A DNA stretch of 30,127 bases from positions 1-30,127 of IMG/VR virus record IMGVR_UViG_3300003267_000536; one strand, 5' to 3'. Position numbers and translations under genes: made by a program. The notes beneath the pieces are model-generated. The model was not told the origin of the DNA. It saw only the letters and a program-made list of their open reading frames with translations, and searched no databases. This DNA is from a virus. The first letter of the stretch is position 1. The number at the start of each line of letters is the position of its first letter. Shown here piece after piece: positions 3,410-20,156 of this stretch.

Positions 3410-4213
3410 CTATAGTCCGCTCGAGCCGAACCCGCGGACACCCCGCTCCGACCCGCCCAGTTCCGCCACCTGCACAGTGGCCAAATCGGCCAGCCGGATC
3501 GGAATCAACTGGGCCAAACGGTCGCCCTCGCGCACAACCGCCGGGTCATCAGCCAAATTCCACGCGCCAGCGAACAGCGGACCTCGATACCCGTTGTCGA
3601 TCACAGCGGCGTTCACCAGCAGTTTGCGGGTGCGCAGGGTCGAGGACCGGCCGATCAGATACCCCCAATAGCCGTGCGGCAGTTCGACCGAAATACCACA
3701 CGGGATGTCGGCGTACGACCGGCCGGGGATGGTGGTGGTTTCGGACACGGTGAGGTCGTAGCCGGCGTCACCCGGATAGGCCCGGTAGGGTGCTTTCCCG
3801 CCCCCGGTCCAGCGCAGTTCGCCCGGCGCGGTGCGTGCCGGCTGTTCGTCCCATTGTTGCCGCAGTGATTTCACCGCCAACTCCGGGTCGTCAAACTGCG
3901 CCACCCGTTCGCGCAACGCCCACGACCCCGCGCCGCCCCACACCACACACGGTTTGCCTTGTCCGAGTGCCCGTTCCAGTTCCATGCCGACGCCGATGGT
4001 GCGGATCGACACTGGCAGCCAGGCGTACAGGGTGTCGCATTGGTCGAGCACGTGGTTATTCGCCACCTGGTCACACCCGCCGTACCACGCTTCAGCCGGA
4101 TCGTACACTACGAACCCGGCCGCGGTGAGCAGGTCGATCGCTTGTTGCCTGCCTACGGCGAGGTCGGCGTCGGCGGCGAAATCGACAGGGTGGGCGAAAT
4201 AGCAGCTAGGCAT
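3410..4213 (-). CDS. Nucleoside 2-deoxyribosyltransferase-like / dUTPase fusion
   Basis: Two enzyme domains are fused in 267 residues. Residues 1 to about 95 resemble the nucleoside 2-deoxyribosyltransferase / DNPH1 family: a start CYFAHPVDF, an NxxxLDQCD segment, and GVGMELERALGQGKP, in which E78 would be the nucleophile that cleaves the N-glycosidic bond. Residues from about 130 on form a complete trimeric dUTPase with all five motifs: DAGYDL (149-154), GRSS (188-191), AVIDNGYRG with catalytic D206, RLAQLIP (232-238), and the Gly-rich tail RGVRGFGSSG. It would convert dUTP to dUMP and may hydrolyse or exchange the base of a deoxynucleotide. The ATG at 4213 overlaps the preceding TGA. An in-frame upstream start is possible but would overlap that gene. 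Confidence 0.85.
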   Translation of the reverse strand: MPSCYFAHPVDFAADADLAVGRQQAIDLLTAAGFVVYDPAEAWYGGCDQVANNHVLDQCDTLYAWLPVSIRTIGVGMELERALGQGKPCVVWGGAGSWALRERVAQFDDPELAVKSLRQQWDEQPARTAPGELRWTGGGKAPYRAYPGDAGYDLTVSETTTIPGRSYADIPCGISVELPHGYWGYLIGRSSTLRTRKLLVNAAVIDNGYRGPLFAGAWNLADDPAVVREGDRLAQLIPIRLADLATVQVAELGGSERGVRGFGSSGL

Positions 4214-4404
4214 CAGATGGTCTCGATGTACGGTTTGGGTTCGGGGATGGTGTAGCACCGTTCGTTGCACGGCTCGAGGTGGGCGTGCGCGTGGATAGTC
4301 TGAATCAGCGGTTTACCGTCCCGGCCAGTCACGCTCGCCGCCAACCGGGCGCTCCGTTCCACGTCACGCCTCGCACCTTCCCACGATATGTAACTGTCAG
4401 CCAT
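4213..4404 (-). CDS. Hypothetical protein (63 aa)
   Basis: A small soluble protein with an acidic N-terminal half and a His-rich middle (IHAHAHLEPCNERC). The two cysteines and several histidines could bind a metal. ATG at 4404 directly follows the stop of the upstream gene, and the TGA overlaps the start of the dUTPase fusion. No family is recognised. Confidence 0.6.
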   Translation of the reverse strand: MADSYISWEGARRDVERSARLAASVTGRDGKPLIQTIHAHAHLEPCNERCYTIPEPKPYIETI

Positions 4405-4818
4405 CTAGGTCCACCGTCCGGTCTCTCGCACTTTCAATGCCATCGACGCATAGATCCGCAGGTCGTAGATCGTGTCCACGTCGGGCATGCGGTGTTCGGT
4501 ATACGCGCCCATCATACGGGCCAACTTCCCGAGTGCGTAGAACCAACAGGCGATCTCCACGCCGACACCGTTCGGCTGGTCGCGCCAACCGAGAAGTTCG
4601 AGCATCGCTTCGCCCATCAACTCGAGGTCGGCCCCGCCGTAGTTCTCCGCTTTGGCGATCACCCCCGCCAGTTCGCTGCGTGCCTGGCCGATCCACCACC
4701 GTCCCAGTTCGCTGGTCGGTTCGTCGTTGTCGCTGACCGCTTCCAACTGGGCCATCGCCTGTTTCGCCTCCGCCAACCCGGGTAGTTCCTGATCTACATA
4801 GTCGTCGTGGACCGGCAT
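4405..4818 (-). CDS. Small all-helical phage protein, candidate nucleotide-pool enzyme (137 aa)
   Basis: This 137-residue helical protein contains AKAENYGGADLELMG and a later EIACWFYALGKLARM followed by a polar helix (VDTIYDLRIYASMALKVR). The pattern recalls a family widespread in actinophages, loosely like MazG or Nmad1 (DUF1599) helical bundles. I do not see a convincing MazG ExxE...ExxD metal site. It lies six bases downstream of the PurZ-like gene, so a role in dNTP metabolism (for example the MazZ step that makes dGMP) is conceivable but unproven. The ATG at 4818 is the obvious start. Confidence 0.65.
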   Translation of the reverse strand: MPVHDDYVDQELPGLAEAKQAMAQLEAVSDNDEPTSELGRWWIGQARSELAGVIAKAENYGGADLELMGEAMLELLGWRDQPNGVGVEIACWFYALGKLARMMGAYTEHRMPDVDTIYDLRIYASMALKVRETGRWT

Positions 4819-4824
4819 CGCTAC

Positions 4825-5832
4825 CTACCGGTCTCGCAGGTCGACCAGCGACCCGGGTCCGGTGCCGACCAGCACGATCGGCGCGCCGATCTCCCGGTCC
4901 AGCTGCCGCAGCACATCCCAATGTTCGATCTTGAGCTTCTCCGGTTGGGTTTCGCCGGCCAACTCGGGATACCAATAGTCGAACTGCATCAACGCCACCC
5001 GACAGGCCCGGCCGCCGTTCGCCCGGATCGCCTCCGCCGCGAGTTGGGGGTCCCACTGGCCGACCCGGCGCATCTTCTGGGTGACCGTGGTGTACTCGGG
5101 TTCTAACCCGAGCGCGTCCCACGTCGTCTCGTCCCGTAGCGGGCCTGAGTTGCCGGCGACCCGGATCGGGTAGGTGCGCAGCACCACCCACGGGGTCACC
5201 CGGTGTTGCCAGGGGGCGATCCCGGCCATGGCGCAGAAGTCGACCGCCCGGCAGTCGCTCGAGGTCACTTGCGGGTAGTAGCGGGTGTGCAGCCCGAGTC
5301 CGTAACCTTGGGTGCCTTCGATCACCACCTGTCCGTCTTCGGCCAACCAGTCGTTCAACAGGTCGGTGGTGTCCACTCCGCCGTTGCCGTAGGTGGGTGC
5401 GGTGCGCATGATTCGGGCGGCACGGGCTGCTCCTACACCTTTGCCGGTCGATCCGATCCGGTCGCGCAGCCCGACATCCGCTTCGTGTTGCCGGTCGGCG
5501 GCGATGATCACGGTTGCGCTGCGGTCGATGAACAGCCGGTTGCGGATCGAATAGCCGGAATATTCTAGCGTCAGGATCTCCTGGTCGAGCACGTCGAGGT
5601 CGATCTCCGACCCTTGGGCGATCACCAGTTGGGCGCGGGGGTTGGTCACCGCGGCGACGGGGATCTGCCGTAGCGCCCATTTCCGACCGTCGGGCGCGAC
5701 CACCGAGTGTCCTGCGTTCGGCCCGGCGACGCGTACGGCCATTACGTTGCGGCCTACTGCTAGGTAACCGGCAACATGGCCTTTAGCTTCCGATCCGTAC
5801 TGGCCGCCACACACTATGTCGATCTGTCCCAT
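4825..5832 (-). CDS. purZ: PurZ-like adenylosuccinate synthetase homologue (2-aminoadenine pathway)
   Basis: The 335-residue protein is clearly of the adenylosuccinate synthetase family but has the short, archaeal-like length of phage PurZ rather than the roughly 430 of bacterial PurA. Seen are the first loop GGQYGSEAKGH (residues 9-19), PNAGH with H42, STGKGVG, IEGTQGYGLG, YPQVTSSD, TVTQKMRRVG and GTGPGS near the end. In cellular PurA the first loop reads WGDEGKGK with a catalytic Asp; here that position is Ser (S14). This change is known for PurZ enzymes, which join aspartate to dGMP on the way to 2-aminoadenine deoxynucleotides. A PurA scavenging role is the alternative. The gene has an SD-like AGGA, and a promoter whose -10 ends six bases before the ATG. 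Confidence 0.85.
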   Translation of the reverse strand: MGQIDIVCGGQYGSEAKGHVAGYLAVGRNVMAVRVAGPNAGHSVVAPDGRKWALRQIPVAAVTNPRAQLVIAQGSEIDLDVLDQEILTLEYSGYSIRNRLFIDRSATVIIAADRQHEADVGLRDRIGSTGKGVGAARAARIMRTAPTYGNGGVDTTDLLNDWLAEDGQVVIEGTQGYGLGLHTRYYPQVTSSDCRAVDFCAMAGIAPWQHRVTPWVVLRTYPIRVAGNSGPLRDETTWDALGLEPEYTTVTQKMRRVGQWDPQLAAEAIRANGGRACRVALMQFDYWYPELAGETQPEKLKIEHWDVLRQLDREIGAPIVLVGTGPGSLVDLRDR

Positions 5833-17907: not shown

Positions 17908-19211
17908 GCTACGAATATCAGCAGGCCGGCACCGAGTTCCTGCGCAACCACCCCCGCGCCATGCTGGGCGACTCCATGGGGTTGGGGAAGAGCAAACAAG
18001 CGCTCGAGGCGGCTGAAGGTCGCACCCTGATCATCGCCCCCGCCATGGCCCACGCTGCAGGTGTCTGGGTCGGTGAGATCGCCAAATGGCGACCCGAACT
18101 CGACTACACCTTGGTCGCCTACACCTCGCTCTGCCAACGGCAGAAAGTGGCCAACGGCAAGACCAAAGTACTGCCCACCCCCCGGCCCGAATACGCCGGC
18201 CGGTGGGACACGGTGATCTGCGACGAAGCGCACTACCTCAAAGGGCGTGCCACCACCTGGACCCGAGCGGTCGAGAAACTGAAAACTGACCGGCTGTGGC
18301 TGTTGACCGGCACCCCCATCCCCAACTGGGCGCACGAACTGTACATCCCGGTCCGACTGCTACACCCTGGCGACCGGGAGTTCACCTCCTACTGGCGGTG
18401 GATCGACCGCTGGTTCGAAACCTGGAAACCCCCGTGGGGTGGCACCAAGATCGGCAAACTCCGATCCGGGACCACCTGGGCCGAATTCCACCAGGCCAAC
18501 CTCGGTGAACTGTTCCTGCGCCGCACCTGGGACGACGTGCCCGACCAGCTGCCGCCGGTCACCATCCAAACCTTCGAAATCCCGATGCACCCGATCCAAC
18601 GCCGGGTGTACGACCAGTTGAAGAAAGATTTCATCGCCACCGTCGGAGACCACGAGATCGTCGCGTTGAGCCAGGCGGCGCAAATCACCAAACTGGCCAA
18701 ACTGGCGACCGGCCTCGAGGTCGAGAACCCGTTGATGACCGGATCGGGGAAACTCGAAATGCTCGCCGGGCTGCTGGCGGAACGGACCAACCCGGTGATG
18801 GTGATGGTCCATTTCAAAGCTGCCGGTCACGCCGCCGAACTGGTGGCGAAGAAAGCGGGGTGTACGGTGGCGCGGATCGATGGTGACACGCCGGCGGGCA
18901 CGATCGGCCGCACCGTGCAGCAGTTCCAGGCCGGTCAGTTCGACGTGCTGGTAGGTACGCTCGACAAACTGGCCGAATCGTTGACGTTGACCCGGGCCGA
19001 CACCCTGGTGTTCCTCGAGCATTCGTGGAAACCGTACCGGAACGCCCAGGCGATGCGCCGGATCCACCGGATCGGACAGCAGCGGCCGTGCCAGGTGATC
19101 CGGCTCTACACGGCCGATTCGATCGACCAGAACATCCAGCGCACGCTGGAGGCGAAAACCGAGCAGCGGGTGGCGGCGTTGACCGGCGCGCAGTTCAAAC
19201 AGCTACTCTGA
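17904..19211 (+). CDS. SNF2-family helicase
   Basis: The 435-residue protein is a superfamily 2 DNA translocase. It shows motif I MGLGKSKQAL (about residues 25-34), motif II DEAH (about 106-109), motif III LTGTPIPNW, and in the second RecA lobe RIDGDTPAG and motif VI RRIHRIGQQRP. It is short compared with cellular SNF2 proteins and lacks extra domains. The TTG start overlaps the repressor TGA, so the two are probably translated together. A role in replication, transcription switching or defence against host systems is possible. The end overlaps the methyltransferase gene by nine bases on the other strand. Confidence 0.88.
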   Translation: MSYEYQQAGTEFLRNHPRAMLGDSMGLGKSKQALEAAEGRTLIIAPAMAHAAGVWVGEIAKWRPELDYTLVAYTSLCQRQKVANGKTKVLPTPRPEYAGRWDTVICDEAHYLKGRATTWTRAVEKLKTDRLWLLTGTPIPNWAHELYIPVRLLHPGDREFTSYWRWIDRWFETWKPPWGGTKIGKLRSGTTWAEFHQANLGELFLRRTWDDVPDQLPPVTIQTFEIPMHPIQRRVYDQLKKDFIATVGDHEIVALSQAAQITKLAKLATGLEVENPLMTGSGKLEMLAGLLAERTNPVMVMVHFKAAGHAAELVAKKAGCTVARIDGDTPAGTIGRTVQQFQAGQFDVLVGTLDKLAESLTLTRADTLVFLEHSWKPYRNAQAMRRIHRIGQQRPCQVIRLYTADSIDQNIQRTLEAKTEQRVAALTGAQFKQLL

Positions 19212-20156
19212 CGCCGCCAGACGGCGGGCGATCCATTCGACGACCGGAACCGCGACCGCGTTGCCGAGGCACCTGTATCGGGCCGAGTCGGACAGCTGGT
19301 CGGTCCACCCGTCCGGGAATCCTTGTAAGCGCTCACATTCCAGCGGTAGAAGTCTGCGCACCGACGCTTCGGCCAGTACGTGCGGCCGTAGGGTGGCGTC
19401 CGATGCCGAAATGGTCTTGCCGTAGTTGTGGTGCAGGGTGGGGGTGACCACCAGCGGTTGCTCGGCTGACGACGCGACACCTTTACCGTCGCGGCTTTTG
19501 ACCGCCGAGGGAATGAAGGTCATTCTATCTGTGTCGCTACACCAGCCACGGTTGCCAGAGCCGCCGCCAAGGGTGGATCCAACCTTTTGCCCCGGTGTGC
19601 GGCGCGCCGGAGGATCCCGGCGCACGCCGTCGCCGTCAAAAAGAACTTCGCAGGCACGTCGCCAGTCGCCACCAGAATGTCCGACAATGAACACACGACG
19701 GCGTCGCTGGGGAACTCCGAAGTATTGAGCGTCCAACACCCGGTAGGCCCACCCAAACCCGAGTTGAGCCAGCGTCCCGACGACGGTTCCCATGTCCCGT
19801 CCGCCGTTGGACGACAGGAGTCCAGGGACGTTTTCGAGTACGACCCATCGCGGTTGCGCCTCGCCAATGAGGCGAGCGTATTCCCAAAACAACCGGCTCC
19901 GGGTACCGTCGAGACCGACTTTGGCACCGGCGACGGAGAGGTCTTGACAGGGGAACCCTCCACACAGCAGGTCGACTGCTCCGGGTTCAAGGTGCAACTC
20001 CTGGATGTCATGAAAGCGGGGGGTGGTAGGCCAGTGGCGTGCGAGCACTGTAGCACAGGCGGGGTCGATCTCGCATTGGAACCCGCATTCCATCCCGGCC
20101 CGGTCGAACGCCAGATCGAATCCGCCGATACCGGTGAACAGCGACCCGTAGATCAC
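19203..20156 (-). CDS. C5-cytosine DNA methyltransferase
   Basis: The 317-residue protein has the ordered motifs of this family. Motif I is SLFTGIGGFDLAF, motif IV is GGFPCQDLS with nucleophile C70, motif VI is LENVPG with E108, motif VIII is QRRRRVFIVG. A target-recognition segment lies around residues 165-240, and motifs IX/X are LLPLECERLQGFP and RCLGNAVAVPVVEWI. It would methylate carbon 5 of cytosine at an unknown site. The GTG at 20156 overlaps the upstream TGA. No restriction partner lies beside it, so an anti-restriction role is most likely. Confidence 0.9.
   Translation of the reverse strand: MIYGSLFTGIGGFDLAFDRAGMECGFQCEIDPACATVLARHWPTTPRFHDIQELHLEPGAVDLLCGGFPCQDLSVAGAKVGLDGTRSRLFWEYARLIGEAQPRWVVLENVPGLLSSNGGRDMGTVVGTLAQLGFGWAYRVLDAQYFGVPQRRRRVFIVGHSGGDWRRACEVLFDGDGVRRDPPARRTPGQKVGSTLGGGSGNRGWCSDTDRMTFIPSAVKSRDGKGVASSAEQPLVVTPTLHHNYGKTISASDATLRPHVLAEASVRRLLPLECERLQGFPDGWTDQLSDSARYRCLGNAVAVPVVEWIARRLAASE

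Follow-up and report, generated by a model that had tools for sequence, protein, structure and literature searches.

We asked whether a PurA-like gene in an uncultured virus (IMG/VR record IMGVR_UViG_3300003267_000536) encodes an enzyme of the PurZ kind, and whether the DNA of this virus can be expected to contain 2-aminoadenine (Z) in place of adenine. The whole stretch analysed, 30,127 nucleotides, is referred to below as the window.

The PurA homologue of the window groups with phage PurZ0

An earlier note, made from the DNA letters, had described the gene as a PurA homologue of 335 residues, within the length range of archaeal PurA and PurZ, with Ser14 at the place of the catalytic Asp and H42 retained. 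All of this was borne out. The reading frame runs from an ATG at 5832 to a stop at 4827-4825 on the minus strand, which the note had left unstated, and the plus-strand reading of 4825-5832 contains several stops. The product matched Pfam PF00709 (adenylosuccinate-synthetase fold; E 5e-41, above cutoff) and PHROG 1211. We aligned it with 21 further PurZ/PurZ0 sequences from phages and with PurA of Salmonella and of Pyrococcus horikoshii. Ser14 falls in the column of the catalytic Asp (Asp13) of both PurA proteins, and this column holds Ser in all 21 other phage proteins. His42 is invariant throughout the alignment, and Asp285 corresponds to the guanine-contacting Asp that is kept in PurA and PurZ0 but is Asn in most of the aligned PurZ proteins.

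On NCBIfam models, the window protein scored 328 bits against PurZ (NF038379; curated cutoff 300), compared with 217 bits against archaeal-type PurA (cutoff 368) and 150 bits against PurA (cutoff 396). These family scores rule out a chance resemblance and, together with Ser14, led us to reject a cellular-type PurA. A phage-borne PurA, which would act on IMP and boost the ordinary adenine supply of a virus with normal A in its genome, shares the fold, has the next best profile in archaeal-type PurA, and would fit the fact that phages can carry purine genes. We nevertheless consider it highly improbable, given the change of the catalytic Asp to Ser, scores below every PurA and archaeal-PurA cutoff, the position of the protein among PurZ0 sequences in the tree, and the neighbouring genes for DpoZ and for DmtZ-DutZ, the latter removing dATP and dAMP.

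The tree of PurA and PurZ that the earlier note had proposed as a check placed the protein with phage enzymes. Among 66 sequences, the window protein lies inside the PurZ0 clade (100/99), apart from PurZ and the cellular homologues, and six PurZ proteins form a separate clade (100/99). In a smaller tree of isolates only, it is sister to 12 isolate PurZ0 proteins (91/94). The sole sequence of supposed cellular origin inside the PurZ0 clade, L106, comes from a contig binned as Verrucomicrobia that is itself a PurZ0 phage contig in a bacterial MAG, with ORF137, DmtZ, DutZ and PurB genes. Among solved structures, 7VF6 (the PurZ0 enzyme from Gordonia phage Archimedes) is the closest. Identity is highest, at 51-52%, to isolates from Microbacterium phages such as Milani; it ranges from 42-52% across actinobacterial PurZ0 phages and is about 33-34% to PurZ phages such as S-2L and phiVC8. 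The earlier description of the gene as PurZ-like thus stands by score, tree and a complete gene cluster (see below), but the type is PurZ0 rather than that of phiVC8 and S-2L. The phiVC8/S-2L system was rejected since its PurZ proteins form the separate clade and no DatZ or MazZ was found in the window. Judged by sequence, the protein is of the PurZ0 subtype, and the cluster is a new, divergent member (at most 57% identity) of a known PurZ0 kind.

Since the guanine-type Asp285 is kept, GTP is the predicted phosphate donor. PurZ0 reportedly uses GTP and PurZ ATP, as Tong et al. are said to have described in 2023. In the main text of a 2026 paper (PMC12884076), one sentence prints the two donors reversed, and the introduction gives ATP for PurZ.

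Used alone as the query against viral contigs, the window PurZ gave no match, whereas the family alignment returned 251 contigs. Relatives therefore occur in at least 251 uncultured viral contigs, compared with about 136 isolate records, which greatly understate the spread of the PurZ0 strategy.

The Ser signature is common among cellular homologues

The earlier note had treated the Asp-to-Ser change as separating PurZ from PurA. This proved insufficient by itself. A profile search of bacterial and archaeal genome contigs with the PurZ0 alignment returned 300 contigs, of which 80 were kept; the residue at the catalytic Asp position was Ser in 73, Asp in 5 and Gly in 1, a biased frequency because the search patterns favour PurZ0-like sequences. 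Apart from L106, the cellular homologues placed in the tree fell in clades outside PurZ0, and the three Ser-type proteins that were scored reached 221-252 bits on the NCBIfam PurZ model, below the cutoff of 300. In 62 of the 80 cellular loci, flanks of up to ~6 kb held none of the ORF137 family, DutZ, DmtZ, DpoZ, PurB, DatZ or MazZ. Ser14 alone was accordingly rejected as proof of PurZ. As far as these alignments indicate, Ser at this position is necessary but insufficient for PurZ0, and it does not by itself mean Z-DNA, since bacterial Ser-type homologues are widespread at loci with no Z genes close by. A signature this common on bacterial chromosomes is unsafe as a lone criterion for calling a Z genome.

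The same homologues raise the possibility that the window enzyme, like those on bacterial chromosomes, makes a free modified nucleotide for defence, counter-defence or signalling rather than supplying Z genome-wide. We regard this as very unlikely: the wide occurrence of Ser-type homologues away from Z genes speaks for it, but the chromosomal proteins belong to other clades, the three that were scored stay below the PurZ cutoff, and in the window a dedicated polymerase and dATP-removing enzymes adjoin purZ.

The cellular loci were of at least two types. One (L107-L185, e.g. L112:2365-4130, L109 and L113) consists of ~345-aa Ser-type PurA homologues on bacterial chromosomes. In 27 of 39 such loci the gene immediately after it resembles a dCTP deaminase, and in about 10 a deoxynucleoside kinase is encoded farther along; these loci possibly serve nucleotide-based defence. 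In the other, of ~540 aa, a P-loop kinase domain is fused to the Ser-type PurA (L133, L138-L141, L145-L152, L183 and others). DUF7002 is the next gene in 35 of 39 such loci and an IrrE peptidase gene precedes in 24 of 39; a representative of this peptidase also matches DarG, the macrodomain antitoxin, and the neighbourhood resembles a DarTG-like module. PADLOC had no model for the PurA part of the fusion. Separately, on a Bacteroidetes MAG contig (L120:3958-9734), the neighbours of a Ser-type PurA include PurB, a family-A polymerase and a gene resembling DutZ; this may be a further Z-DNA phage lineage, distinct from both PurZ and PurZ0.

purZ0 lies in a Wayne-type Z-DNA gene cluster

We then examined the genes around purZ0 (Table 1).

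Table 1. Features of the purZ0 cluster in the window, in minus-strand 5'->3' order.
Feature	Position	Strand	Evidence or context
Cas4-like nuclease	13450-12479	minus	
RecA/Sak4-like ATPase	12576-11551	minus	
Primase-polymerase/helicase, 844 aa	8487..11021	minus	PF09250 Prim-Pol E 1e-25, PF08708; place corresponds to Wayne gene 45
DpoZ, family-A DNA polymerase with 3'-5' exonuclease domain, 610 aa	6361..8193	minus	NCBIfam NF038381
RuvC-like resolvase, 135 aa	5842..6249	minus	Family profile with Archimedes RuvC-like gene; between DpoZ and purZ0
purZ0, succino-2-amino-dAMP synthetase homologue, 335 aa (S14, H42, D285)	4825..5832	minus	NCBIfam, PHROG, structure, tree, residue columns
ORF137, conserved PurZ0-linked protein, proposed dNTP pyrophosphohydrolase	4405..4818	minus	Directly downstream of purZ0
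ORF63, small ORF	4213..4404	minus	Between ORF137 and dmtZ-dutZ; overlaps next start (TGATG)
dmtZ-dutZ fusion, 267 aa	3410..4213	minus	N-terminal NDT-like DmtZ, C-terminal dUTPase-like DutZ
D12-class (Dam-like) DNA methyltransferase, 237 aa	2696..3409	minus	PF02086 E 2.5e-7; PADLOC MTase_II 128 bits

The polymerase scored 365 bits on NF038381 (cutoff 350), a model on which the Wayne and Ghobes enzymes reach 1145 and 434 bits, while the phiVC8 polymerase matches the other DpoZ model. Its identity by tblastn was 35-37% to PurZ0 phages and at most 27% over comparable lengths to the others sampled, and its exonuclease and polymerase motifs are intact. Both PurZ0 and DpoZ are divergent, as each clears its cutoff by a small margin (328/300 and 365/350).

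The fusion protein matches the fusions of Arthrobacter phages along its full length at 33-37% identity. Its C-terminal half is a dUTPase-family DutZ (PF00692, E 1.7e-23), and its N-terminal half keeps each of the six DmtZ residues that were mutated or modelled in PMC12884076 (Ghobes Y6, D12, P57, N77, E103 and W124). A Wayne-like Z-DNA cluster is expected to combine DpoZ with dutZ, expected in every PurZ0 genome, and dmtZ, expected in most and usually fused; the window has both the polymerase and the fused gene.

The RuvC-like protein of the window gave nothing above cutoff in Pfam; in many IMG/VR loci, similar genes separate DpoZ from purZ. The position of ORF63 is held by a small hypothetical gene in Wayne (gene 52), Theresita and Parvaparticeps. 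The D12 methyltransferase was not found in 80 other PurZ0 loci, or by tblastn in PurZ0 isolates, and was rejected as a standard part of the cluster. Among phages, its closest matches came from a spring siphovirus and from an uncultured phage of 735 kb. Because N6 of Z is still an amine, the enzyme could in principle methylate Z; alternatively, it may act on host DNA or on early A-containing DNA. The window also encodes a C5-cytosine DNA methyltransferase (19203-20156, minus; PHROG 116, E 6e-91), and more than one type of modification may therefore be present in the phage DNA.

No PurB was found within the 30-kb window, so the host supplies this enzyme or the gene lies outside. The record is probably a fragment; isolate Z phages of the PurZ0/Wayne type have genomes of about 40-45 kb. 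The first 20 kb matched no phage by megablast, so at the DNA level this virus is new in the collection searched.

The gene identities, key residues, gene order, phylogeny and strict PurZ0-ORF137 linkage are established here. We are highly confident that these genes form a module for nucleotide supply and replication in an uncultured siphovirus-like phage of the PurZ0/Wayne type with a Z genome. That 2-aminoadenine is present in its DNA is likewise very probable, since PurZ0 sits in a complete Wayne-type Z-DNA cluster; the decisive evidence is this whole cluster, not Ser14 alone. Three observations run against this reading: PurZ0 and DpoZ clear their cutoffs by small margins, the Dam-like adenine methyltransferase in the operon would be odd if the DNA lacked adenine, and a phage-encoded PurB was not found in the window.

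A proposed route to Z-DNA

The pathway proposed for the window phage is modelled on the published Wayne, Ghobes and phiVC8 enzymes. PurZ0 would join dGMP and aspartate, with phosphate from GTP, into succino-2-amino-dAMP (dSMP), which a host PurB lyase and host kinases would convert to dZTP. According to the main text of PMC12884076, DutZ of Wayne and Ghobes hydrolyses dATP and dGTP, and their DmtZ hydrolyses dAMP and transfers deoxyribose phosphate onto the Z base; these are the activities that removal of A and supply of Z require. By analogy, the DutZ domain of the window fusion would convert dATP to dAMP, removing A, and dGTP to dGMP for PurZ0, and the DmtZ domain would destroy dAMP or move its deoxyribose phosphate onto the Z base, thereby recycling Z. 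DpoZ, helped by its proofreading domain, would favour dZTP over dATP and place Z opposite T. ORF137 would most likely act as a further dNTP pyrophosphohydrolase, sharing the dGTP and dATP conversions with DutZ, at a place that Arthrobacter phages fill with DUF5664-1 and S-2L fills with MazZ. The main text of PMC12884076 assigns the PurB step to host enzymes and does not name PurB. A PurB-like lyase lies near purZ in many PurZ0 phages (L005, L006, L007, L019, L020 and L022, and ~34 of 80 IMG/VR loci).

ORF137 is strictly linked to PurZ0

A tblastn search of 50,697 phage records with ORF137 gave 31 matches, only in PurZ0 phages and, by genus counts, equal to all 31 PurZ0 isolate records outside Arthrobacter. 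None of the 105 Arthrobacter PurZ0 records matched, and the Arthrobacter loci that were read hold DUF5664-1 at the ORF137 position. The ORF137 family directly follows purZ in 80 of 80 IMG/VR PurZ0 loci, and the gap is at most 30 bases in most when an N-terminal extension is left out of the count. In a reverse search with two subgroup alignments of the family, purZ lay directly upstream in 25 of 26 loci; at the 26th, the contig ends upstream, and DmtZ-DutZ lies downstream. An ORF137-like gene is undiscussed in the main text of PMC12884076. We put at about even the chance that ORF137 represents an unreported family, an obligatory PurZ0 partner in Z-DNA phages and a further independently recruited dGTP/dATP-clearing enzyme. 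On this reading the family occurs in every examined PurZ0 lineage except the Arthrobacter Korraviruses, where DUF5664-1 has taken its place, and ORF137 would be a one-gene marker for PurZ0 viruses.

The ORF137 protein of the window alone matched no family in Pfam, NCBIfam, PHROG or PADLOC. Its AlphaFold (AF2) model is all-helical (pLDDT 87) and had no significant fold match in the PDB; after family members, its fold neighbours in BFVD include several DUF6378/'nucleotide modification associated' (Nmad) proteins, at E above 0.1. K56, Y60, K98, R101, D115, D119 and Y123 are invariant in the family, and the K-x2-R and D-x3-D-x3-Y patterns are invariant in both this family and DUF6378. Pfam DUF6378 matched one family member (E 0.037) and not that of the window, and phrog_474 weakly matched 8 of 44 members (best E 0.0015). 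The phrog_474 proteins (e.g. L216, L217, L218) are of the DUF6378 family though labelled 'phosphofructokinase', a label that looks wrong. By hhalign, ORF137 against DUF6378 gave P 0.05, with a marginal score of 17.4 (the best of 60 shuffles reached 15.6). Identity as DUF5664-1 or MazZ-2 was tried and dropped, as profile comparison lent it no support.

From these sequence and model comparisons we slightly favour ORF137 as a diverged MazG/DUF6378-like dNTP pyrophosphohydrolase. Somewhat short of an even chance is the alternative that it is a partner of PurZ0 or a dedicated enzyme of some other kind, such as a dSMP- or dZMP-handling protein, rather than a pyrophosphohydrolase. This would suit the want of a convincing Pfam or PDB match, the blank profile comparisons with MazZ-2 and DUF5664-1, and a DUF6378 score barely above the shuffles. 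It fits less well with the position of the gene, which coincides with DUF5664-1 in Wayne and with MazZ in S-2L, with its being missing exactly where DUF5664-1 is present, and with the invariant residues, phrog_474 matches and fold neighbours that point to DUF6378. A pyrophosphohydrolase role thus remains our preferred prediction.

Comparison with known Z phages

The Z-DNA kit of some actinobacterial phages was known already; what is new is the conserved companion gene ORF137, which probably helps building-block supply. It is a conserved, uncharacterised gene whose role would complete the PurZ0 pathway, and the window extends, by one divergent lineage, a rare chemistry in which adenine is exchanged for another base across a whole genome.

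Arthrobacter phage Wayne (Korravirus, KU160672) has the gene order of the window in its genes 41-53 and shares the fused DmtZ-DutZ, the NF038381 subfamily of DpoZ, and the Ser and guanine-Asp in a PurZ0 that is 45% identical. In contrast to the window, Wayne has DUF5664-1 rather than ORF137 downstream of purZ, an HNH gene rather than a RuvC-like gene upstream, and lacks the D12 methyltransferase. The Gordonia phages Ghobes and Archimedes resemble the window in PurZ0, an ORF137-family gene directly after purZ, DmtZ and DutZ (the Archimedes PurZ of structure 7VF6 is 46% identical), but their DmtZ and DutZ are unfused and their PurB is phage-encoded. In the Microbacterium phage Milani/Goodmanvirus group, whose PurZ identity of 51% is among the highest of the isolates, the ORF137 family also follows purZ, whereas only DutZ is present and the DmtZ domain is absent. 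Phages of the PurZ type (phiVC8, S-2L, SH-Ab 15497) have Ser for the catalytic Asp and the overall strategy in common with the window, but belong to another clade (100/99), mostly have Asn at the guanine position, and carry DatZ and MazZ instead of DutZ and DmtZ. DutZ, DmtZ and DpoZ also accompany purZ in IMG/VR relatives, two of which (L026 and L027; PurZ0 55-56% identical) carry DpoZ, RuvC-like, ORF137, DmtZ and DutZ genes in the order of the window, with DmtZ and DutZ unfused and no D12 methyltransferase.
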